This document shows, one piece after another, positions 4,166 to 58,976 of a stretch of DNA of 64,000 nt. Where the stretch lies: NCBI GenBank assembly GCA_029570205.1, contig JAKQSI010000082.1, positions 1-64,000 on the forward strand, given 5' to 3'. A program made the position numbers and the translations under genes. Every line of letters starts with the position of its first letter. The first letter of the stretch is position 1. The notes under the pieces are model-generated. The model made no database searches. It was given only the letters and a program-made list of their open reading frames with translations, and had not been told where the DNA came from. This DNA comes from Candidatus Omnitrophota bacterium (GTDB lineage Bacteria > Hinthialibacterota > Hinthialibacteria > Hinthialibacterales > JAKPRU01).

Positions 4166-4250
4166 GGTATGTCCTTACCCGTATTTCCAGCATAAAAAGT
4201 TATTATAGGAATTTGCCCGACGATGGCAAGGCAGTACAGTCTTTGGTCTG

Positions 4251-4334
4251 CAACAGGCAGAGACCCCTGTCCTGCCGGCAACAGGCAGAGACGCCTGTCC
4301 TGCCGGCAACAGGCAGAGACGCCTGTCCTACCGG
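4251..4334 (-). repeat. Three-unit hairpin repeat array, reverse orientation
   Basis: Three units, about 28 bp apart, reading CAACAGGCAGAGACGCCTGT with CCTGCCGG spacers. The stem ACAGGC/GCCTGT with AGAGAC loop is the reverse complement of the forward units. It occupies the gap between the GT2 gene and the oppF-like gene. Confidence 0.85.
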
Positions 4335-4419
4335 GAAAGATACTCACCCCTCCCGTTGTTCCTGACGTCTAGGGGGCTATAATTCGCCTGGAAATCAAGC
4401 GTTTTGTTCGATAGGAATC

Positions 4420-6980: not shown

Positions 6981-7020
6981 CAGAGACCAGCGCTGTGTAA
7001 CCGAATAGTCTTTAGAATAT

Positions 7021-7430
7021 CGTCATTGCGAGCGAAGCGTGGCAATCTCGGCGTTCTAACGCGGAATCCCGGCCCTTCAACAATCTCAGGAACCGGGACT
7101 GAGGCTGAGATCGCCACGTCGCCGCCCTTCCAGTCGGCCAGGCGTCCCTGCCTGGCAGATAAGTAGGCCAGGCGTCTCTGCCTGGCAGCTAAGTAGGCCA
7201 GGCGTCCCTGCCTGGCAGCTAAGTAGGCCAGGCGTCTCTGCCTGGCAGCTAAGTAGGCCAGGCGTCTCTGCCTGGCAGCTAAGTAGGCCAGGCGTCCCTG
7301 CCTGGCAGCTACCAGTAGGCCAGGCGTCTCTGCCTGGCAGCTACCAGTAGGCCAGGCGTCTCTGCCTGGCAGCTAAGTAGGCCAGGCGTCCCTGCCTGGC
7401 AAAGAAGGGCGGGAAACACACTTTCTTCAC
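7021..7430 (+). repeat. Composite repeat element A with nine hairpin units
   Basis: Left module: TCATTGCGAGCGAAGCGT at 7023-7040, followed by GAGATCGCCACG near 7108-7119. Then nine hairpin units start at 7136, 7166, 7196, 7226, 7256, 7286, 7318, 7350 and 7380, mostly 30 bp apart. Right module at 7400-7428 contains GAAGGGCGGGAAACACAC, identical to a segment in element D on the other strand (43490-43520). No transposase or integrase is encoded. The right part overlaps the 3' end of the minus-strand membrane protein gene at 7309-9345, which reads into it. Confidence 0.88.
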
Positions 7431-9345
7431 CCAATCGCCGACCGTGACCGGATCGATTCTGCAGGATGGTGCAAAGGACGGGATCCACAAGCGTTATTGT
7501 CTCCGGAGCTGAGATACTTCTGTTCTGCGCGGTGATTTCGATGGAGCCGATCTCGAGGTCGGGATTCAACCGGAACCAGATTTCGCCGGTGTACCCATCC
7601 ACAGGGGATTGTTCATTCCGTTTGTCTACCAGGAAGATCTCACGATTGATTACGTGGCCACTTGTGTCACAGGCCGTGGCCCTGACTAACAGGGGAGATT
7701 CTTTCTTCATAATTCCGGTAATGAAGTCGGACAAGCAAGTACTCGGCGGCAGGTTGTGAAAGACGATGGTTTCACCGGACGGAATGAGCAGTTCGGGAAG
7801 ATCCTCTACTTTCGCTCCTTGTCCGGTGACGGATACCATATTTGCCTCGATGCGAACAGCCAGGATGTTCGGCTGTCCCAGAGTCTTTTTGAACACTCTC
7901 CAGGAAGGCCATTTTTCCATTCCGGCGATATTGTAAAACGATTTACAAAGGCGATATCTGTCATGGATCTGAAGACCTGACTCCAAAAGACCATGCCGGG
8001 CGATCCAGGTCGGCTTGGTATTCTGGACCGTTTCGACCAGTTTTCGACCGTAATCGAGAACCACTCGTGAGTTCAGGCCGGAAATATCAATCGTGTACAG
8101 GCGGGAATTCCGCGCAAAGTGCCCGAAGCCGCAGAGCAATGTGTCCGAGGGATTGCTGTTCTCGTGAATCCAATCGCCGACCGCCATCCGCTCGGTCTCG
8201 ACAACATGCAGATAATGAAGGCATCTCTGCACTGCGGCAAAGACCTGCGGAGAGCAGATCCAGAGAACGGCAGCCATGACAAGGACGCCGGCGGCTGTCG
8301 AGTATTTATGAAGCAGCGTCGGCAGAGATGTCAATAGGATGACAAGAAGTTGAAGCAGAATCAAAAACTCCGGGACGGCATAGTACCACACCATCCGTTC
8401 TTTGGGGTTGTAAAAATAGTACAGAATGAGGTAGCCAATAACTGCAAATCCGTATACAGGAATATCGGTTGCTTTTCGGTATTCCTTTCTGGAAAGGCAC
8501 AATACTGTGTAGAATATAAACAGGATCAGCGCTGCATATATCATCGTATTAGACAATGCGAAGGAGAGAAGATACGGAAACCAGTGGTCGGAGAGATTCT
8601 TGTGATAATAATACTTTGCCACGGCAGTATGCGGAACCGGACCGTCGAAGACAATATACGTAAAAATAACCCAGACAAGCCCCGGAAGGATACCGAAGAA
8701 CAGCAAATCTTTAGCAATGGCGCGCACTGGAATCGGTGCGGGATCGAGCCAATTGCGAATCAGGAAGGCAACGGCAAGGACAACACAGATCGGGGCGGCG
8801 TCAAGTTTTGAGATCGCCGCCAACAATAATGCACTCCAAAAATACTTTGATTTTCCATAAAGCAAAAGAAAGAAGCAAAACAGGATGATGGAAAGATGCA
8901 GCGGTGTCTCGAGTCCCTGTTTGATGCAAATCACAAAACTGGGTGAGCAAAGCATCAGAACAAACCAGGCAGAATAGATGAGAATCTGTTTGTCCGAGTA
9001 ACGTGAAAGCAATCGCAGGGAGAGAAAAGATGTAAAAAATAGACCGATAAAATTGGAAGCAAACAGACTGTTGAGGGGAGAAAAAATGTGGGTAAAGGCG
9101 AATAAGCCTGCAACGATGCCGTGGATAAAACCCGAAATGCCGAAAATCGGGCCATCACCTGGATTATAGGTATAGAAATACCCATCCGCAAAATTGTCCA
9201 TATATTTGAGGATAATCCCGGCATCATCCCAGACTACATTTGTCGGCCAGAAAATGAAAAACAGAATAGAAAAAACAAGCGAGGCGAGAATCTGCAAGGT
9301 GATCTCGCGGTCCGCTTTAGAAATGTAGTCAAGCCAGCCGGGCAT
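7309..9345 (-). CDS. Polytopic membrane protein, PMT/GT39-like
   Basis: A 678-residue protein with about 10-12 membrane segments in its first 400 residues and a soluble C-terminal part. The early VVWDDAGIILKYMDNFADG places an acidic pair in the first outer loop, as in GT39-type glycosyltransferases. I chose the ATG at 9345 because AGGA lies 8 bases upstream; the open frame runs further to 9414 without a clear ribosome site. The last 35 or so residues (GTPGLL, AETPGLL, QRRLAYW) are encoded by the repeat array, and the stop at 7309 lies inside the seventh-from-right part of it. The original C-terminus was therefore probably replaced or extended by the repeat. Function and substrate are unknown. 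Confidence 0.8.
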   Translation of the reverse strand: MPGWLDYISKADREITLQILASLVFSILFFIFWPTNVVWDDAGIILKYMDNFADGYFYTYNPGDGPIFGISGFIHGIVAGLFAFTHIFSPLNSLFASNFIGLFFTSFLSLRLLSRYSDKQILIYSAWFVLMLCSPSFVICIKQGLETPLHLSIILFCFFLLLYGKSKYFWSALLLAAISKLDAAPICVVLAVAFLIRNWLDPAPIPVRAIAKDLLFFGILPGLVWVIFTYIVFDGPVPHTAVAKYYYHKNLSDHWFPYLLSFALSNTMIYAALILFIFYTVLCLSRKEYRKATDIPVYGFAVIGYLILYYFYNPKERMVWYYAVPEFLILLQLLVILLTSLPTLLHKYSTAAGVLVMAAVLWICSPQVFAAVQRCLHYLHVVETERMAVGDWIHENSNPSDTLLCGFGHFARNSRLYTIDISGLNSRVVLDYGRKLVETVQNTKPTWIARHGLLESGLQIHDRYRLCKSFYNIAGMEKWPSWRVFKKTLGQPNILAVRIEANMVSVTGQGAKVEDLPELLIPSGETIVFHNLPPSTCLSDFITGIMKKESPLLVRATACDTSGHVINREIFLVDKRNEQSPVDGYTGEIWFRLNPDLEIGSIEITAQNRSISAPETITLVDPVLCTILQNRSGHGRRLGEESVFPALLCQAGTPGLLSCQAETPGLLVAARQRRLAYW

Positions 9346-9379
9346 ATTCAATATCCTGTAAGGAAATTCCATTTGCAGA

Positions 9380-10066
9380 GTCATGTTATTGCGAGCGCAA
9401 CTTGGCAATCTCATATCGGGTCATCGACAGGCAGGGACGCCTGTCCCACCAGTAGGCCAGGCGTCCCTGCCTGTCCCACCAGTAGGCCAGGCGTCCCTGC
9501 CTGGCAGCCACCGTAGGCCAGGCGTCCCTGCCTGGCATCTACCCAGTAGGCCAGGCGTCCCTGCCTGGCAGCCACCGTAGGCCAGGCGTCCCTGCCTGGC
9601 AGCCACCGTAGGCCAGGCGTCCCTGCCTGGCATCTACCCAGTAGGCCAAGGCGTCCCTGCCTGGCAGCCACCGTAGGCCAGGCGTCCCTGCCTAGCATCT
9701 ACCCAGTAGGCCAGGCGTCTCTGCCTGGCAGCCACCCGTAGGCCAGGCGTCCCTGCCTGGCAGCCACCAGTAGGCCAGGCGTCCCTGCCTGGCAGCCACC
9801 GTAGGCCAGGCGTCCCTGCCTGTCCCACCAGTAGGCCAGGCGTCTCTGCCTGGCAGCTACCAGTAGGCCAGGCGTCTCTGCCTGGCAGCTACCAGTAGGC
9901 CAGGCGTCTCTGCCTGGCAGCCACCCAGTAGGCCAGGCGTCTCTGCCTGGCAGCCACCCAGTAGGCCAGGCGTCCCTGCCTGGCAGCCACCCAGTAGGCC
10001 AGGCGTCTCTGCCTGGCATCTACGGCGTCCCTGCCTGGCAAAAAAGGGAGGCTCGCAATGACATTG
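9380..10066 (+). repeat. Composite repeat element B with about 20 hairpin units
   Basis: The longest array in the window. The left side has TATTGCGAGCGCAACTTGG (9388-9406), a degraded copy of the TCATTGCGAG module, then one inverted unit (CGACAGGCAGGGACGCC, from 9425). Eighteen forward units and one partial unit follow at 30-32 bp spacing. Two units (near 9455 and 9801) carry a hybrid stem, CCAGGC with GCCTGTCCC. The right side (10040-10066) has GGGAGGCTCGCAATGACA, the inverted partner of the left module, so the whole element is bounded by ATTGCGAGC / GCTCGCAAT. It fills the gap between two large membrane-protein genes. Confidence 0.9.
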
Positions 10067-10071
10067 TCCTG

Positions 10072-12879
10072 TCATTTCGACCGAAGGCAGAAATCTCCGC
10101 GAGCGATTGAACCTTTCCGACCTGTGAGAGAATTTCTGACCTTTATTGTTGCAGCTGCAATCCCCCCCAGCAAGACGATCCCCGATAGACAGCACGCCAG
10201 ATAGAAGATTATGGGCCGATAACGCAGGCGCAGGATTCCCGCCTCACCGTGAATGGGAATCGCCATGAATGCGTGGTCCGCCCGCAGAACGGGCACGGAC
10301 CCACCGTTCATTTCGGCACGCCACCAGGGACTATAGCCCTCAGTCACAATAAGAAATCCCTCGGTATTCGGCGAGATCTGGAAGAGGATTTCATCGGAGG
10401 AAGGGCGTTCGATGGTGATGGAGATTGCCTCCTCCCGGTTAGAGACCATGCAGTCTGAAGGAGGGAATTGGTCAAACAGGACTGTTTCGCGCAGGTTGAT
10501 CTGACCGGAGATCATGATCTCGATTCGTTCGGTTGCGTCAGAAATCAATTCCCAATGCGTTGCGATCCAGGCGGGTGGGAATGCCGTGGGATTCTCAAAG
10601 ACCTCGACACCGTTATTCTCAAATATGCGCGGATAAATCTCCCGCTCGGTATCGGTCAGCATCATCTCTATCGGCGACCACTCACCACGGGGCGCGTCGC
10701 AACGAAAGGCAACGGAGGTCGCCTCGATGGGCGGATCGACTGCCCATCGCGCCCAATAACTCACCGCCGGGCGATATCCCCGGATATACGGCACGGGCCA
10801 CCAGTGAAAGACCTGCGCCTGTCGAAATCCGCGCGCGTCCTCCGGCAGAAAGTCGGCAAGGTCACTACCGTAGCGCACCGGAAATTCCCGGAACTCGCCG
10901 GACACATTGCGAATTTCAATCGTGCCGATAACTGTGTCATCCGGCAATCCAGACATGTCCCTGCACGTGTGCCGGATGAACAGGCGATCGGTTCGTATCG
11001 GATCGGACAGGGATAATGCCTTCCGTTCGCCGGATTTGAGAATCACTTGGGGGAGTTTGCACAAACGATCCGCAGGATTACCGATGATCGTCTCTACACC
11101 CAGAAAATCAATCAATCGCGGCGGGGCGGTCTCCAACTGAACATTGCGGAGAGCATTGGAGGCGCGCGATTGGCCTGCCCATGCTCGAATCAGTTCTCCA
11201 TACTGTCTCGGATAGACCGGCTCGTAGCCCTGGATTTCCCGCAGACGAAAGATTTCCGGAAATCGGTGTGCCAAATGCGGAGCATTCCACGCGCAACGCA
11301 CATCGCCCGAATCGGAAATGGCTTTCGAATGTCCCAGTACCCTTCCCTGCTGCACACGATAACGTTCCTGGACCCATCGAACCGCAGGCGGCGGGTCGAA
11401 AAAATTCGGCGATGTGTATTCAACAAAAAAGCGCGGAGTTACATAGAACATCTGGACCAACATCAATACGGCGATCCCCGCCAGGTGAGGCGCATATCCC
11501 CACGCCCGGTGAGCAGGCAACCATAACACCAGCGCTGTGAGAGACACACCGAAGAGCGCCAAGGCAATCATCAGTTCCATGTCCGGCACGGCGTTCGCAT
11601 CGAAGGTTGCGGTAAAAGCCGGATTTCTTAGAGAAAGAAGCCAGAGCGAATGTTTGAACGCGAGATGCACAAGTAATGCAAAACAACCCACTATGCAAAG
11701 CACAAACGCCGGCAGGAACCATTTGCGTAAAACGCCGGCACGCAAAATGCGCTCTGCGCCGAAAGCGATCAGAACTGGAATCGACCAGGCCGCCATCAAA
11801 AGCGCGCGGTTGGGCAGGTTGAGGTACGCGGCCCCCGGAACGAAACGATGGAACAGCGGGTAGACCGGTGTATTCGGCCCCAATGCAAACAGGAATCCGA
11901 CCGCAGTGGCTGTCAGCAAGGCCCATGTTTCACGCCGTCCTTTTCGCGCGACGACGCCGAAACCGGCAAGAATCAGGCCCGTGATGCTGAAGAACAGCGT
12001 GCCTTCCCACGGGTCCAGACGGGTTACCTTGGGTTGGGTCAGGCCGCAGAGCAAAACGCCGGGAAAATCGCGCAATGCGAGCGCGCCCTGGTAAGCCTCT
12101 TCAGGGCCGAGCGGCGCACGATTCGAACGTGAGAGGTACTCGGCGGCGGGCATCCAGGACCATGCGGAAAGACCGGCAGCAACGACAATGATAATCAGCG
12201 CGTACTGCGCCGTTTGGCGATCAATATGGAAACGACGTATCCACGCCCAGAAAAACAAACAAAGCATGGCGGAATAAATGACGGGGTGCGGCGCACCGGC
12301 TCCCACAATCAGCGCACCAAACACACCCGCGAGGATCACCCAGCACAGGGAGTTACGCTCCAATCCGTTGAGAAATGCAAGCAGGAGAAACGGAATCCAG
12401 GCATTGCCCTCCATGTTGCCGAGATTAACCGCCTTGCACCACCAGAACGAACCGCCCGCACACCCCAGAGCGCCCACGAATGAGGCAAGAACGCCACAAT
12501 CGAGGAAACGACAAAGAAAATAAACGCCGATCACTCCCGCTGCCAAATGCCCGATCAGCAAAACCGCGTATGCTCGCGGCGCAGGCAGGAAACTCAATAG
12601 GATGTTTGGCGGATACAACAGCTGCGATTGGGGATTGCCATCTCTGGGAAATCCGCAAAAAAGGTAGGGGTCCCATAGTCCGACGAACGGGTCCTGAGAG
12701 ATTGCCCGCAAGGGATAGAAGAAAAGCAGGGTATCTTCATCGAGAGGCAGACGCCCTTCAAACGCAATCGGCGAATGAAGCCCCATCACCACACATAACA
12801 ATAGAAACACCGCCAACAGGTCGGGTCGGCGAAGAATAGAAGGCGTGTCGCACCAATTCAATGGGGCCATCGCATGCAT
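10072..12879 (-). CDS. YfhO-like large membrane protein
   Basis: A 935-residue protein with about 12-14 membrane segments followed by a long soluble C-terminal region and a last helix (FYLACCLSGIVLLGGIAAA) near the end. Early residues EGRLPLDEDTLLFFYPLR and LWDPYLFCGFPRDGNPQSQ match the pattern of YfhO-type bacterial membrane proteins (acidic outer loop, then the LW-P...G.P...QLLYP stretch). In Gram-positives YfhO is linked to glycosylation of lipoteichoic acid; here the substrate is unknown. Start is uncertain: ATG at 12879, ATG at 12870 or further upstream, none with a clear ribosome site. Confidence 0.82.
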   Translation of the reverse strand: MHAMAPLNWCDTPSILRRPDLLAVFLLLCVVMGLHSPIAFEGRLPLDEDTLLFFYPLRAISQDPFVGLWDPYLFCGFPRDGNPQSQLLYPPNILLSFLPAPRAYAVLLIGHLAAGVIGVYFLCRFLDCGVLASFVGALGCAGGSFWWCKAVNLGNMEGNAWIPFLLLAFLNGLERNSLCWVILAGVFGALIVGAGAPHPVIYSAMLCLFFWAWIRRFHIDRQTAQYALIIIVVAAGLSAWSWMPAAEYLSRSNRAPLGPEEAYQGALALRDFPGVLLCGLTQPKVTRLDPWEGTLFFSITGLILAGFGVVARKGRRETWALLTATAVGFLFALGPNTPVYPLFHRFVPGAAYLNLPNRALLMAAWSIPVLIAFGAERILRAGVLRKWFLPAFVLCIVGCFALLVHLAFKHSLWLLSLRNPAFTATFDANAVPDMELMIALALFGVSLTALVLWLPAHRAWGYAPHLAGIAVLMLVQMFYVTPRFFVEYTSPNFFDPPPAVRWVQERYRVQQGRVLGHSKAISDSGDVRCAWNAPHLAHRFPEIFRLREIQGYEPVYPRQYGELIRAWAGQSRASNALRNVQLETAPPRLIDFLGVETIIGNPADRLCKLPQVILKSGERKALSLSDPIRTDRLFIRHTCRDMSGLPDDTVIGTIEIRNVSGEFREFPVRYGSDLADFLPEDARGFRQAQVFHWWPVPYIRGYRPAVSYWARWAVDPPIEATSVAFRCDAPRGEWSPIEMMLTDTEREIYPRIFENNGVEVFENPTAFPPAWIATHWELISDATERIEIMISGQINLRETVLFDQFPPSDCMVSNREEAISITIERPSSDEILFQISPNTEGFLIVTEGYSPWWRAEMNGGSVPVLRADHAFMAIPIHGEAGILRLRYRPIIFYLACCLSGIVLLGGIAAATIKVRNSLTGRKGSIARGDFCLRSK

Positions 12880-40200: not shown

Positions 40201-40312
40201 CCGTCATTGCGAGCGAAGCGTGGCAATCTCGTCGCCGTGCTGCGCAAACAAGAGATCGCCACGTTCCGGCTCCTTCGCAGACTCAGGAGCCGAAACTCGC
40301 GATGACGGCAAA
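40201..40312 (+). repeat. Composite repeat element C without a hairpin array
   Basis: CGTCATTGCGAGCGAAGCG at the left (40203-40221), GAGATCGCCACG in the middle, and CTCGCGATGACGG at the right (40298-40310). The two ends form an imperfect inverted repeat (CGTCATTGCGAG / CTCGCGATGACG). It lacks the CCAGGC hairpin units, so it may be the basal form of the element. It lies between the two minus-strand sugar gene groups. Confidence 0.8.
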
Positions 40313-43440: not shown

Positions 43441-43604
43441 GTACCCGTCCCGTCATCGCGAGCCTCGCTCCGGCGGGGCCGGTGATTGAAGAAAGAAAGT
43501 GTGTTTCCCGCCCTTCTTTGCCGGGCAGGGACGCCTGGCCTACTGGGGAGCTGCCGGGCAGGGACGCCTGGCCCACTGGTGGGACAGGCGTCCCTGCCTG
43601 TCGA
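43441..43604 (-). repeat. Composite repeat element D, reverse orientation
   Basis: Read on the minus strand: an inverted unit CGACAGGCAGGGACGCCTGT, two forward units near 43551-43574 and 43519-43540, then the right module GAAGGGCGGGAAACACAC, then CACCGGCCCCGCCGG and CTCGCGATGACGGGACGG. The first three parts match elements A and B. It lies in the 5' part of the open frame of the adjacent secreted-protein gene. Confidence 0.88.
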
Positions 43605-54664: not shown

Positions 54665-54800
54665 CGCCTTCTCTCCTTACCACTTGCTGTGCGATAGTAC
54701 CAATCAAAACGGGGAAAGGTCCAGAGCGGAGAGGGTTTAAGAGGAAAGGGGGAGAAGAAACCATGTGCAAACGACAGGCACGGAGACAATGACTTACCCA

Positions 54801-55040
54801 GTAGGCCAGGCGTCCCTGCCTGTCACCCCAGTAGGACAGGCGTCCCTGCCTGTCACCCCAGTAGGACAGGCGTCCCTGCCTGTCATCCCGGGCGGTCAGG
54901 CGTCCCTGCCTGTCATCCCAGTAGGACAGGCGTCCCTGCCTGTCACCCCAGTAGGTCAGGCGTCCCTGCCTGTCATCCCGGGCGGACAGGCGTCTCTGCC
55001 TGTCACCCCAGTAGGACAGGCGTCTCTGCCTGTCACCCAT
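54801..55040 (+). repeat. Eight-unit hairpin repeat array with the GACAGGC-type stem
   Basis: Eight units with an exact 30 bp period, starting at 54801. Most carry GACAGGC-GTCCCT-GCCTGTC; two (from 54891 and 54951) have a T in the left arm, and the first has CCAGGC on the left only. Because 30 is a multiple of three the array stays open in several frames and reads as a repeating PVGQASLPVT peptide. It lacks the TCATTGCGAG end modules. Confidence 0.9.
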
Positions 55041-55651: not shown

Positions 55652-57232
55652 ATGGAACAGGTATCCCGCGTTTCCAGGTGCGGAACCGTTGTGTTCACAG
55701 TAACTCTGTCGCTTGCGGCGGTGATTCTCCTGATCCGTATCCCTGAATTTCTCTACAGGTTATTCGATCCCGATGAATTCGAACATCTCCACGCCGCATT
55801 CTGCATAAATAACGGAATGGTTCCGTACCGAGACTTTTTCGAGCATCACACACCGCTCTTCTGGATGGGCCTGCAACCCCTTTACTTGTTTTTCGAGAAC
55901 CCGATCCGAATGTTGCTCGCAGGGCGGCTTCTAATGTTCTTTGTCACGGTCGGGATCGTTCTTGTAACCTGTCAATTATCCTCCCTGCTGTATGGCCGAT
56001 GTGTCGGAGTGATTTCGGTTCTGTTGTTGATCTGCATTCAGATGTTCGTAGAGAAATCCATGGAAATCCGCCCCGATGGTCTGGAAACACTTTTCTGGCT
56101 CTTGTTCCTCCAACTGGGCATTCGGGCGATTCATTCCGAACGGGGATTTGTCTATTTCTTATTTGGGATTTGCGCCGGGATTTCCATACTGTTTTCGCAG
56201 AAGGTGATTCCGGGTATTGCCGGCGTCTTTCTCGCGTGGCGGCTATTGAACATCAAGCCGCAAAAAGAACGCCCTCCTCTAACCTTGAGCCGGTTTGCCC
56301 TGTTTTCGGCGGGCGTTCTGCTCCCCGTTGTTCTCACCGGATTGTTGTTTCTTTTTTTCGGAGCATTCGGGGCATTTGTTCATCGTTGTTTTCTATTCAA
56401 CGCGCTGTGGGAAATTCGGACCGGTCCGTTTCCGGTCTGCCTTGAATTCGTGCGGGAGAACCCCATGGTATTCGCCCTTGGAGTCGTGGGGATTCTCTAT
56501 TTACTACGGAACTGCCGCGAGGCTCCGGAGAATGCCCTTCTGCTCGGTTCGCTTGCGGGTACAGGTGTGGGTATTATATGGATTCCCATCATGCAGCGGC
56601 AATATCTTATGCTCCTGTACCCCCTGTGGGCGATTTGTGCAGCGAAATGGATGGCCGATCGAGTTCTCTATGAGAAGCAAAAGTCATCACGCATTTATGA
56701 TTTTCTTTTCGCGGTCCTTCTCGGCGTATCTCTGGCCATTTCGTCTACGGAAGACGGAAGGCCATTTGGAAACCATCTGTTTATCTTGCTGATTTTTGTT
56801 GGGACCTGTGTCTTTTCGGTTCTCTTTCTTCGGGTACGGGAGGCTCTGACTGTATTTATTGTAATGGTAATCTCTCTTGGCCCGATTCTGAAACCGCTAC
56901 AGCCGAACTATGTCCGAAATACAGCGCAAAAGGAATATATTCGGCTGATCGATGAGGAAACGGACCCGGACGATTGTGTTCTGGACGGCTGGAGCGGCTA
57001 TGCCTTTTTCCGGCCCCATGCCTATTATTATTTTTTCCTGCACCCGGAAATCCGGGCCATGCTTACAGGGGATGAATTAGACAAAAACGTGATCGAGGCG
57101 ATTCAGCGCAACAAGCCGAAAATCATTATCTATGACTCGAATCTCCGTTCTCTACCTTCATCCGTAAATGAGCATATTCGGTCGCATTACCGCGCGATGG
57201 GGTTGGACGATCTGTATCGTCGGGCGGATTGA
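55652..57232 (+). CDS. GT39/PMT-like membrane glycosyltransferase
   Basis: A 526-residue protein with about 12 membrane segments. RLFDPDEFEHLHAAFCINNG shows the acidic pair of the first outer loop, followed by PYRDFFEHHTPLFW, the common GT39-type pattern. Its end (residues 440-526) is soluble and outer-facing. It would use a polyprenyl-phosphate sugar donor. Its last 107 bases overlap the convergent gene at 57126-58976. Confidence 0.85.
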   Translation: MEQVSRVSRCGTVVFTVTLSLAAVILLIRIPEFLYRLFDPDEFEHLHAAFCINNGMVPYRDFFEHHTPLFWMGLQPLYLFFENPIRMLLAGRLLMFFVTVGIVLVTCQLSSLLYGRCVGVISVLLLICIQMFVEKSMEIRPDGLETLFWLLFLQLGIRAIHSERGFVYFLFGICAGISILFSQKVIPGIAGVFLAWRLLNIKPQKERPPLTLSRFALFSAGVLLPVVLTGLLFLFFGAFGAFVHRCFLFNALWEIRTGPFPVCLEFVRENPMVFALGVVGILYLLRNCREAPENALLLGSLAGTGVGIIWIPIMQRQYLMLLYPLWAICAAKWMADRVLYEKQKSSRIYDFLFAVLLGVSLAISSTEDGRPFGNHLFILLIFVGTCVFSVLFLRVREALTVFIVMVISLGPILKPLQPNYVRNTAQKEYIRLIDEETDPDDCVLDGWSGYAFFRPHAYYYFFLHPEIRAMLTGDELDKNVIEAIQRNKPKIIIYDSNLRSLPSSVNEHIRSHYRAMGLDDLYRRAD

Positions 57233-58976
57233 ATTGTCCCTTGAGTATATATGCATCGAATAATTCCCTGGATTCCATCCGCAAGTAGTTCTCTTCGAGA
57301 AACAGGCGCATCTCGGTCCATTGCTCCACAAATTTATCGCTGTCTATCGGATGCTGCGGTGTCCGGTCTTTTTTCATCACAACAATGAATTTCGGCGAAG
57401 TGTTTTGCAGCGTTTCCAGTACCTCGTTTCGTGCCGGTTCCCGAATCGGCGAATGTTCGGCCGTGTAAGGAAGATGAAAGAAATAGCGACTTGCAGAGCG
57501 TCGTTCCGACAGCACATACAGGTCCGGGCAATAGCCGATCACGAAAAGGGTGTCCCTGGGGGTTGTATCGTGTCGAATCTCCGCAGCAAGTCGGAGAATA
57601 TCCTCATTCGTAAAAAAACCGATTGCAGGCGGCTTCCAGTCGCCGGCCTCCGTCCAGTACCATTTCACCGATCGTAGCGATTGAAACAAGACAAACGGAA
57701 GAAGAATCCATATCCACAGGGACCGTGTTCGGGGACAGCCCACGGGAAGTACGGTCGTTGTTGTAACGGCATGGGAACCGGCAAGCGCCATCGGGGGAAC
57801 GAGCAAAAGAAAATAGTGCGGATAAAAGCGCCATCCGATACACACCGACAGGACGCCGCCGATCAACCAGGTCGGCAGCCACAACCGATTCGGCATATCG
57901 CTCTTCTTTTGTTGCAGGAATCCGACTACAGCCAAAAGCGCAAAGGGCAATAGAAAAAAAAGTCTGGGCGGCACAACACCGGACAGATACTCCCAATGGG
58001 GGGCCCCTCTCGAATACGAAGGATTGTACACAGCCATCACGAAGAACCAGTCGGACAGAATCCCCTCTGAGAGACACCAGGTGAAGATCATGCCGAACGC
58101 GGCTGCCATGCCGACGGCTATTCCGACCGGCCGTCTCACAAAACCGCTCATGGAAAGAACCAGCAGGGCCGGAAGACAGGCGAGGGCAGCTGTCGGCTTG
58201 AGAAGTACGGCGAACCCGGAAAGAACACCCGCCAGGACGGATAGAAATATGGGCGAGATTCTCCGCACAAGGGAGGAATCACCGGGAACAGATGCAAACA
58301 GCGAAGCGGCGGGGCCGGTGATTCGCGAAAGAAAGTGCCGTGCCCGTCCCGTCATCGCCAGGAACCGCCCGGAGTCTGCCAAGGGCGGCCACGTGGCGAT
58401 CTCCGGTTCGCACGCTCGATCGCTGAGATTGCCACGCTTCGCTCGCAATGACGCATTGTCGCTTTGTTCCTGGGAATGACGGTTGTGGGGATTCTCTCCT
58501 GCAAAAAGGCGCATGGCAATCACAAACAGCAACAGCGCGGGAATCTCCATTGCCGAGGTATTGCCCTGAATCGGTTCCGCAATCAGCAGTGCGGTCGCCA
58601 ATCCGCCGGTAAGCCAGGCGTTTTTCCCGACACGCGCCTGTTGCCCCAGCCCGCACAGGTGGTAAACCAGCGCGGCTCTCAGCCCATTTATTCCCAGCCG
58701 CAAACCTGAAAGACTGTCTCCAAACAACAGCATCAGCCCCGCGCAGAGCAGCCATTCCGTGGGATCTTTATGGTCCCAGAAATCCCGATAAGGCGTCCGG
58801 TCCTGCAACAACTCCCGCGCGCAATACACCCGAAGACCTTCATCCGGTTCGAACGATCGGTTCTCCAGCGCGGGGATTTGAATCAGCAGACAGACCATCG
58901 CCCACAGCGCCGCCGGAAATCTCCAGGTCTCGACGATGGGAGGGCTTTCTGTCTCGGTCTTTTGAGAAATCGCCAT
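57126..58976 (-). CDS. GT39/PMT-like membrane glycosyltransferase with an in-frame repeat insert
   Basis: A 616-residue protein, related in pattern to its convergent neighbour (FEPDEGLRVYCARELLQD, TPYRDFWDHKDPTEW). About 10-12 membrane segments. Residues about 170-224 (from RHSQEQSDNASLRAKRGNL to ITGPAASLF) come from repeat element E and are not glycosyltransferase sequence; the membrane helices resume after them at FLSVLAGVLSGFAVLLKP. The insert keeps the frame. The final 40 residues overlap the opposite gene. Confidence 0.82.
   Translation of the reverse strand: MAISQKTETESPPIVETWRFPAALWAMVCLLIQIPALENRSFEPDEGLRVYCARELLQDRTPYRDFWDHKDPTEWLLCAGLMLLFGDSLSGLRLGINGLRAALVYHLCGLGQQARVGKNAWLTGGLATALLIAEPIQGNTSAMEIPALLLFVIAMRLFAGENPHNRHSQEQSDNASLRAKRGNLSDRACEPEIATWPPLADSGRFLAMTGRARHFLSRITGPAASLFASVPGDSSLVRRISPIFLSVLAGVLSGFAVLLKPTAALACLPALLVLSMSGFVRRPVGIAVGMAAAFGMIFTWCLSEGILSDWFFVMAVYNPSYSRGAPHWEYLSGVVPPRLFFLLPFALLAVVGFLQQKKSDMPNRLWLPTWLIGGVLSVCIGWRFYPHYFLLLVPPMALAGSHAVTTTTVLPVGCPRTRSLWIWILLPFVLFQSLRSVKWYWTEAGDWKPPAIGFFTNEDILRLAAEIRHDTTPRDTLFVIGYCPDLYVLSERRSASRYFFHLPYTAEHSPIREPARNEVLETLQNTSPKFIVVMKKDRTPQHPIDSDKFVEQWTEMRLFLEENYLRMESRELFDAYILKGQFNPPDDTDRPTPSRGNATEYAHLRMKVENGDSSHR
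58303..58466 (-). repeat. Composite repeat element E inside a glycosyltransferase gene
   Basis: On the minus strand: CGTCATTGCGAGCGAAGCG, then GAGATCGCCACG, then GGCGATGACGGGACGGGC, then GGCACTTTCTTT and CACCGGCCCCGCCGC. The order and sequences match parts of elements A, C and D. It has no CCAGGC hairpin units. About 160 bp, with both junctions keeping the reading frame of the host gene. Confidence 0.88.

Follow-up and report, generated by a model that had tools for sequence, protein, structure and literature searches.

Five composite repeats, A to E, lie within a 64,000-nucleotide stretch of a draft genome of Candidatus Omnitrophota bacterium (contig C107; the stretch is called the window here), and they raise the question of whether they are copies of one element with fixed ends or several kinds of repeat superposed on one another. 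The original prediction had read them, from the letters alone, as a family of non-autonomous composites with shared ends that gain or lose hairpin arrays, with no enzyme in the window. The composite family, the changing arrays and the lack of an enzyme inside the window all hold up on wider comparison; the single family with fixed ends gives way to two known types of repetitive extragenic palindrome (REP) overlaid by an outer inverted repeat. We describe the elements as a mosaic family of non-autonomous repeats, similar to bacterial interspersed mosaic elements (BIMEs) and Neisserial intergenic mosaic elements (NIMEs), whose layers appear to move by separate means, and we assign this reading a probability of about 0.8.

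The source genome (G000) comprises 4.39 Mb in 131 contigs. It was compared with two sister species, G001 and G002, both fragmented drafts, which over syntenic stretches are ~84% and ~95% identical to the window, respectively. Genome-wide motif counts were controlled with reversed patterns, and modules were annotated on loci fetched around the motif matches.

Module order across the genome

All of the named motifs were found at their predicted places in the window, and genome-wide they occur far above chance: TCATTGCGAGCGAAGCGT gave 13 matches against 0 for the control, the array hairpin core 424 against 0 by one pattern and 540 against 1 by another, and GAAGGGCGGGAAACACAC, at up to three mismatches, 23 against 4. 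The recurrent order is a CGTC-tagged arm, hairpins, an inverted hairpin, n forward hairpins, GAAGGGCGGGAAACACAC, CACCGGCCCCGCC and a second CGTC arm, and this order from CGTC to CGTC is present at more than 10 loci of the genome and in both sister species. In its left part, the fuller arrangement runs from the CGTC arm through GTGGCAATCTC, GAGATCGCCAC, a GGCGGC hairpin and CTCCTAAGAAAGCTCGCCCATCGA to the inverted hairpin; the right part continues with 1 to ~20 forward hairpins, followed by GCAAAGAAGGGCGGGAAACACACTTTCTTCACCC, AATCACCGGCCCCGCCGGAGCGAGG and CTCGCGATGACG. One locus (L065) contains all modules and another (L069) nearly all. The consistent order first proposed for the window is thus kept among the annotated loci of the genome, but each of the five window copies is partial, with different modules missing and none having every one.

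Array hairpins and their putative transposase

The array unit, GTAG followed by GCCAGGCGTCYCTGCCTGGC, is a GTAG-tagged REP, a member of the known family (as defined in PMC3733652) by all features tested. The forward unit, GTAG-GCCAGGCG-TCCC-TGCCTGGC, folds into an 8-bp stem beside the GTAG with a 4-nt loop, in keeping with a family in which a terminal GTAG adjoins a paired stem of 5–13 bp with a loop of 2–20 nt. Copy number is high, as judged from the 540 core matches, and the same REPs flank a gene for a REP-associated tyrosine transposase (RAYT). This gene, one of three Y1 transposase genes in G000, is located outside the window on contig C89 and is the helper that the original prediction had suggested looking for. 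Its product matches PF01797 and, with 86.6 bits (cut-off 80), the REP-associated tyrosine transposase model NF047646; an HVH motif and a Y..KNP motif are visible in the sequence, and a phmmer search against solved structures returned no match. GTAG hairpin arrays made up of a sister subtype and near-identical inverted units are found on both sides of the gene. In G002 the orthologous gene (contig C302; 90% identity) occupies the corresponding genomic position and is flanked by the exact window unit GTAGGCCAGGCGTCTCTGCCTGGCA and by CAGGCACGGAGGCCTGTCCTAC..GTAGGCCAGGCGTC, and the heterodimer beside it, CAGGCACGGAGGCCTGTCCTACTATTTCAGTAGGCCAGGCGTCTCTGCCTGGCA, is the tail-to-tail heterodimer found at the composite core. 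These sequence neighbourhoods identify the C89 RAYT as the cognate of the array hairpins.

Tandem arrays also flank the two further Y1 transposases, L062 (G000:C51:63620) and L064 (G000:C48:81488), each with hairpins of its own (ACCGTTTCAACGGTGGG and GGCGGGAGCTGACGCTCCCGCC, respectively), and the L064 enzyme is likewise a RAYT by NF047646. In G008, a genome of the same order, a variant core, CAGGCGTCCCCGCCTG, occurs in 59 dispersed copies, and tandem arrays are almost absent.

The CGTC shell

The outer arms, CGTCATTGCGAGCGAAGCGTGGCAATCTC, make an inverted dimer of ~105 bp, the shell, which is bare in many copies. Folded as DNA, the shell reaches −31.5 kcal/mol (z −3.8). Because shuffle z-scores are not significant for the CGTC monomers alone, their pairing is argued from covariation: all 56 monomers in the genus loci are paired at two stem positions that the search pattern left free, over three stem types (ATTGC/GCAAT, ATTCC/GGAAT and ATTTC/GAAAT). 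RNAalifold analysis of 12 shells yielded 32 pairs, only one of them with changes on both sides, which is weak evidence for selection on structure.

Like the published CGTC-tagged REPs, which bear a CGTC (or TGTC) tag at one end, the arms have a terminal CGTC tag, a stem that starts with AT pairs as in families 1–4, and a tendency to form head-to-head dimers, here the bare shells. Families 1–4 have a stem of 8–9 bp and a loop of 4–5 nt, whereas the arms here have a 5-bp perfect stem and a 12-nt interior, and the tail is CTC rather than mostly CCA. We regard the CGTC part as closely related to the known superfamily but as departing from it in these two published dimensions. None of the three Y1 transposase loci of G000 is flanked by CGTC arms, other transposases not having been surveyed. 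In a reference genome collection, scanned with near relatives left out, at least 117 stretches contain an exact match to the 27-bp arm, and these belong to many phyla and groups, including Chloroflexota, Bacteroidota, Gammaproteobacteria, Clostridia, Fibrobacter, Nitrospirota and KSB1, among others. A loose pattern places an inverted partner no more than 170 bp away for 78 of 128 cross-phylum copies; SAR202 Chloroflexota carry ~90-bp dimers closely resembling the copies here, and shells without arrays are found across many phyla. Searching the literature for the CGTC sequence returned only unrelated papers.

Arms of this kind also occur in other settings. Tandem CGTC arms with a period of ~70 bp lie at a contig end (G000:C33:27160-27630), and an unrelated bacterium has six 34-bp copies in tandem (L238:1461-1657). 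At positions 10067-10110 of the window, and at many loci, there are more CGTC-like monomers, TGTCATTTCGACCGAAGGGAGAAATCTC and TGTCATTCCGAACGAATGTGAGGAATCTC, of the same design and with a co-varying stem.

Outer repeat and interchangeable cargo

A third layer, the inverted repeat TTGTGTAAC, surrounds some copies; at up to three mismatches its arms number 14 in G000, 25 in G001, 4 in G002 and 0 in G003. Complete copies are enclosed by CTAGTGTTGTGTAAC...GTTACACAACACTAG, and at one locus (L225) the outer arms surround a different, non-CGTC interior. Target duplications at the outer arms, assessed by eye, are not consistent.

The inner module is bounded by GAGCNNNNCTCCGGCGGGGCCGGTGATTGGGNNAAGAAAG and CTTTCTTAGGAG. 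Following its 53 distinct 5′ ends are GTAG hairpins (34), a CGTC shell (9), one of three other hairpin types (9) or other sequence (1); the cargo is interchangeable, GTAG hairpins being simply its most frequent kind. A CGTC arm stands directly upstream of 30 of these 5′ ends, and the 3′ ends fall in the right CGTC arm 22 times and in the left arm three times, all after GAG. We infer from these junctions that the CGTC arm is the target into which the module inserts; events may also have run in the opposite order.

Differences between species and array growth

Empty sites, which the original prediction had suggested looking for, are seen in the sister species. Element A is missing in G001 (contig C703), with 10 bp between the flanking matches versus 449 bp in the window. 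Element C is missing in both sisters, as is element E, the same protein loop there containing other sequence. The D site holds a bare shell in G001 and an array-bearing element in G000. An orthologous element on contigs C113 (G000) and C122 (G002) keeps its module end with arrays built differently, the G000 array (L354) including a tandemly repeated block of ~95 bp that comprises three hairpins. Over 22 arrays, spacers have a mean similarity of 0.896 within an array and 0.649 between arrays, and the maximum of 500 label shuffles is 0.690. Since spacers are array-specific, the hairpins point to local tandem duplication, not repeated insertion, as their source; ordered tandem REP clusters that include flanking DNA are known in Pseudomonas. 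Many contigs begin or finish inside arrays.

The two REP types differ in their numbers among the three genomes. GTAG cores number 540 in G000, 204 in G002 and 57 in G001, and a RAYT was found in G000 and G002 and none in the draft of G001; CGTC inner arms number 47, 13 and 120 in G000, G002 and G001, respectively. The GTAG and CGTC halves seem to multiply independently, and because their numbers vary independently, two systems are probably at work.

Copies in the window and the genes that carry them

The region 7021-10066, over which the original prediction was placed, consists of two separate copies, A and B, with a minus-strand gene (7309-9414) between them. Element A, on the plus strand, starts not at 7021 but at ~6993 with the outer inverted repeat TGTGTAACCGAATAGTCTT; this outer arm (TGTGTAACCGAATAGTCTTTAGAATAT, 6993-7021) recurs elsewhere and is closed by GTTACACAACACTAG in complete copies. 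There follow the left CGTC arm CGTCATTGCGAGCGAAGCGTGGCAATCTC (7022-7050), with its ATTGC/GCAAT stem paired, the inner arm GAGATCGCCACGTCGCCGC (7107-7125), which pairs with GTGGCAATCTC in the shell fold, nine head-to-tail GTAG-REP hairpins with a period of 30–32 bp (7134-7402), and the module tail GAAGGGCGGGAAACACACTTTCTT (7403-7430); on C703 of G001 the site is empty. The inverted hairpin, module M6 (CACCGGCCCCGCC) and the right CGTC arm are missing from A. The element lengthens the C-terminus of gene 7309-9414 past the end of its G001 orthologue.

In element B, a degenerate left CGTC arm (9385-9413, plus strand) is followed by an inverted GTAG-REP unit, the tail-to-tail partner (9428-9443, minus), an array of ~19 head-to-tail GTAG-REP hairpins with a period of 30–34 bp, the last one partial (9453-10040, plus), and a right CGTC arm (GCTCGCAATGACA; 10050-10066, minus). 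Of the modules assigned to it, B is without GAGATCGCCACG, GAAGGGCGGGAAACACAC and M6, and its ends are degenerate. Element C (40202-40309, plus) is, as predicted, without an array: a bare CGTC dimer shell of ~105 bp. Element D (43441-43604, minus) retains the right CGTC arm, the module tail, two forward and one inverted GTAG-REP; the left CGTC arm and GAGATCGCCACG are lost. It lies directly upstream of a gene that starts with a likely signal peptide, as judged by eye. Element E was also correctly described as lacking an array, its bare CGTC dimer shell occupying 58348-58451 (minus), but an extra module-tail piece downstream (ACTTTCTTTCGCGAATCACCGGCCCCGCCG; 58303-58347, minus) leaves CACCGGCCCCGCC outside the shell. 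This shell is in frame in an open reading frame (57126-58976, minus) whose orthologues carry a different, shorter insert at that place; in-frame palindromic repeats are known in Rickettsia (PMC2229807). Loops of membrane proteins with in-frame repeats that differ between species were seen at L127, L128 and window 58348-58451, and the repeats are the CGTC shell, GQASLPG encoded by GTAG hairpins, and PDLPRSSGEGPL from the CCCCCGAAGATCGGGGG hairpin.

GTAG hairpins without a shell occur at three places in the window: at 184-262, in a short array of three units (175-265, plus); at 4254-4330, in a GTAG-REP-like array of three 28-bp units (4250-4335, minus); and at 54807-55033, in an array of eight 30-bp units (54800-55040, plus). 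The last coincides with a synteny break (54789-55040): in G001 and G002 the left flank runs on into other sequence, and to the right of the array lies the C-terminal half of a membrane protein, for which no N-terminal half was found in this genome. Either an array-mediated deletion or an assembly mis-join would account for the break.

Discussion

The reading we favour has up to four layers. GTAG-tagged REP hairpins, arranged as a tail-to-tail heterodimer, would be spread by the C89 RAYT, an HUH single-strand transposase. The biochemistry of RAYT action on the REP strand has been described (PMC8266576); on the present model, the enzyme here would act on the GTAGGCCAGGCGTCYCTGCCTGGC strand of the GTAG-REP, with single-stranded GTAGGCCAGGCGTCTCTGCCTGGCAGCT as its predicted substrate, and it probably moves the GTAG hairpins. 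The second layer would be the small module with ends GAGCNNNNCTCCGGCGGGGCCGGTGATTGGGNNAAGAAAG and CTTTCTTAGGAG, carrying the heterodimer or another hairpin and placed directly after CGTCATYGCGAG of the CGTC arm. The CGTC-tagged inverted dimer, distributed across phyla, would form the third layer, probably with a mobiliser other than the RAYT, and the outer TTGTGTAAC terminal inverted repeat a fourth in some copies. Forward hairpins would multiply by local tandem duplication, through slippage or unequal recombination, so that neither array length nor spacer would be constant from site to site or from one sister species to another. Several points weigh against this scheme. Transposition is deduced from sequence and was not directly seen, and homologous recombination or gene conversion could disperse the composite without it. 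The empty sites are not base-exact, because differences extend into the flanks and a clean target duplication was not seen. The absence of a RAYT from G001 rests on a fragmented assembly, array lengths are unreliable in drafts whose contigs break at arrays, and no CGTC arm can be recognised upstream of 23 of the 53 module 5′ ends. A bolder extension, which we regard as rather unlikely, treats the AAGAAAG...CTTTCTT module as an independent cassette, perhaps mobile as a single strand, that inserts in a site- and orientation-specific manner after CGTCATYGCGAG of CGTC arms, exchanges REP cargo and uses the pan-phyletic CGTC repeat as its landing site; if true, this would amount to a two-tier REP system of a new kind.

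Among other explanations, a minority chance belongs to the view that the module order arose as short stretches held in common recombined and underwent gene conversion, a mechanism proposed for dRS3/NIME arrays, and that transposition now plays little or no part. Exchange of cargo at shared AAGAAAG/CTTTCTT borders, the alternation of shell and array at the orthologous D site and the synteny break inside an array all suit this view; however, insertions at sites empty in the sisters (A and C) and copies in unrelated flanks call for a dispersal step, and two species retain an intact RAYT together with matching REPs. A single miniature inverted-repeat transposable element (MITE), moved as one unit by a conventional DDE transposase, with the outer TTGTGTAAC repeat or the CGTC ends as its recognition sites and the arrays as passengers, could explain why complete copies with matching outer arms sit in unrelated flanks and why composites share internal junctions at many loci. 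We consider it improbable: uncoupled GTAG and CGTC copy numbers and exchangeable cargo weaken it, no autonomous element with these ends appeared among the fetched loci, the outer arms are missing from most array-bearing copies and also enclose the L225 interior, and, by eye, no target duplication is constant.

Retention of the elements for an RNA or protein function, as mRNA 3′ hairpins or in-frame loop peptides rather than selfish DNA, seems quite improbable. It draws on the stable shell fold, on stem pairing kept in 56 of 56 monomers over three sequence types and on the presence of E and a 30-bp-period array within open frames. Yet at the same sites the sister genomes have either no copy or an unrelated repeat, and gene conversion or enzyme recognition of inverted repeats would produce the same pairing. 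That metagenome assembly artefacts created part of the pattern, namely the contig-end arrays and the break at 54.8 kb, is very hard to credit; contigs of these fragmented drafts do often start or stop in arrays, but composites are also found far from the ends of long contigs, between intact genes, and this holds for three genomes that were assembled separately. The layered mosaic remains our preferred description.

Relation to known repeat systems

With GTAG-tagged REPs and their RAYTs (REPtrons, REPINs and BIMEs; PMC3733652, PMC3116915, PMC8266576) the arrays share the GTAG tag, the 8-bp stem and short loop, hundreds of copies, a RAYT gene among the same REPs, tail-to-tail heterodimers and clustering; unlike those systems, they are nested in a CGTC shell. 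The shell recalls CGTC-tagged REPs (PMC3733652), which include dRS3 and RPE-4/RPE-6 of Rickettsia, in its outside CGTC tag, its stem starting with AT pairs, its 3-nt tail, its head-to-head dimers and its intragenic copies; no dedicated transposase was found for either, the survey here covering the Y1 transposases of G000. It differs in the 5-bp perfect stem around a partly paired 12-nt interior, in the CTC tail and in extending to many more phyla than the five listed there. The different copy-number behaviour of GTAG and CGTC repeats offers a natural way to part the effects of the RAYT from those of whatever moves the CGTC repeat with its pan-phyletic 27-bp arm. NIMEs, whose dRS3 is CGTC-1, also combine short CGTC-type repeats with exchangeable longer units in mosaic arrays (PMC3898611), but their sequences are different, and among the exchangeable units of the present elements is a REP family that has its own RAYT and forms tandem arrays. 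A pair of REPs lying within a longer inverted repeat is known for GTAG-15 of A. variabilis and CGTC-1 of H. neapolitanus (PMC3733652), whereas the nesting here involves two REP superfamilies plus an outer inverted repeat, and the cargo can be exchanged. The palindromic elements of Rickettsia (PMC2229807) similarly lie in frame within protein genes; the host here is unrelated, and different repeats occupy the same protein loop in different species. What is new is not a categorically new element but the nested arrangement of known repeat kinds, with exchangeable cargo and long head-to-tail arrays, which brings into one nested element, in three species, the two large REP superfamilies, of which only one has a known enzyme.
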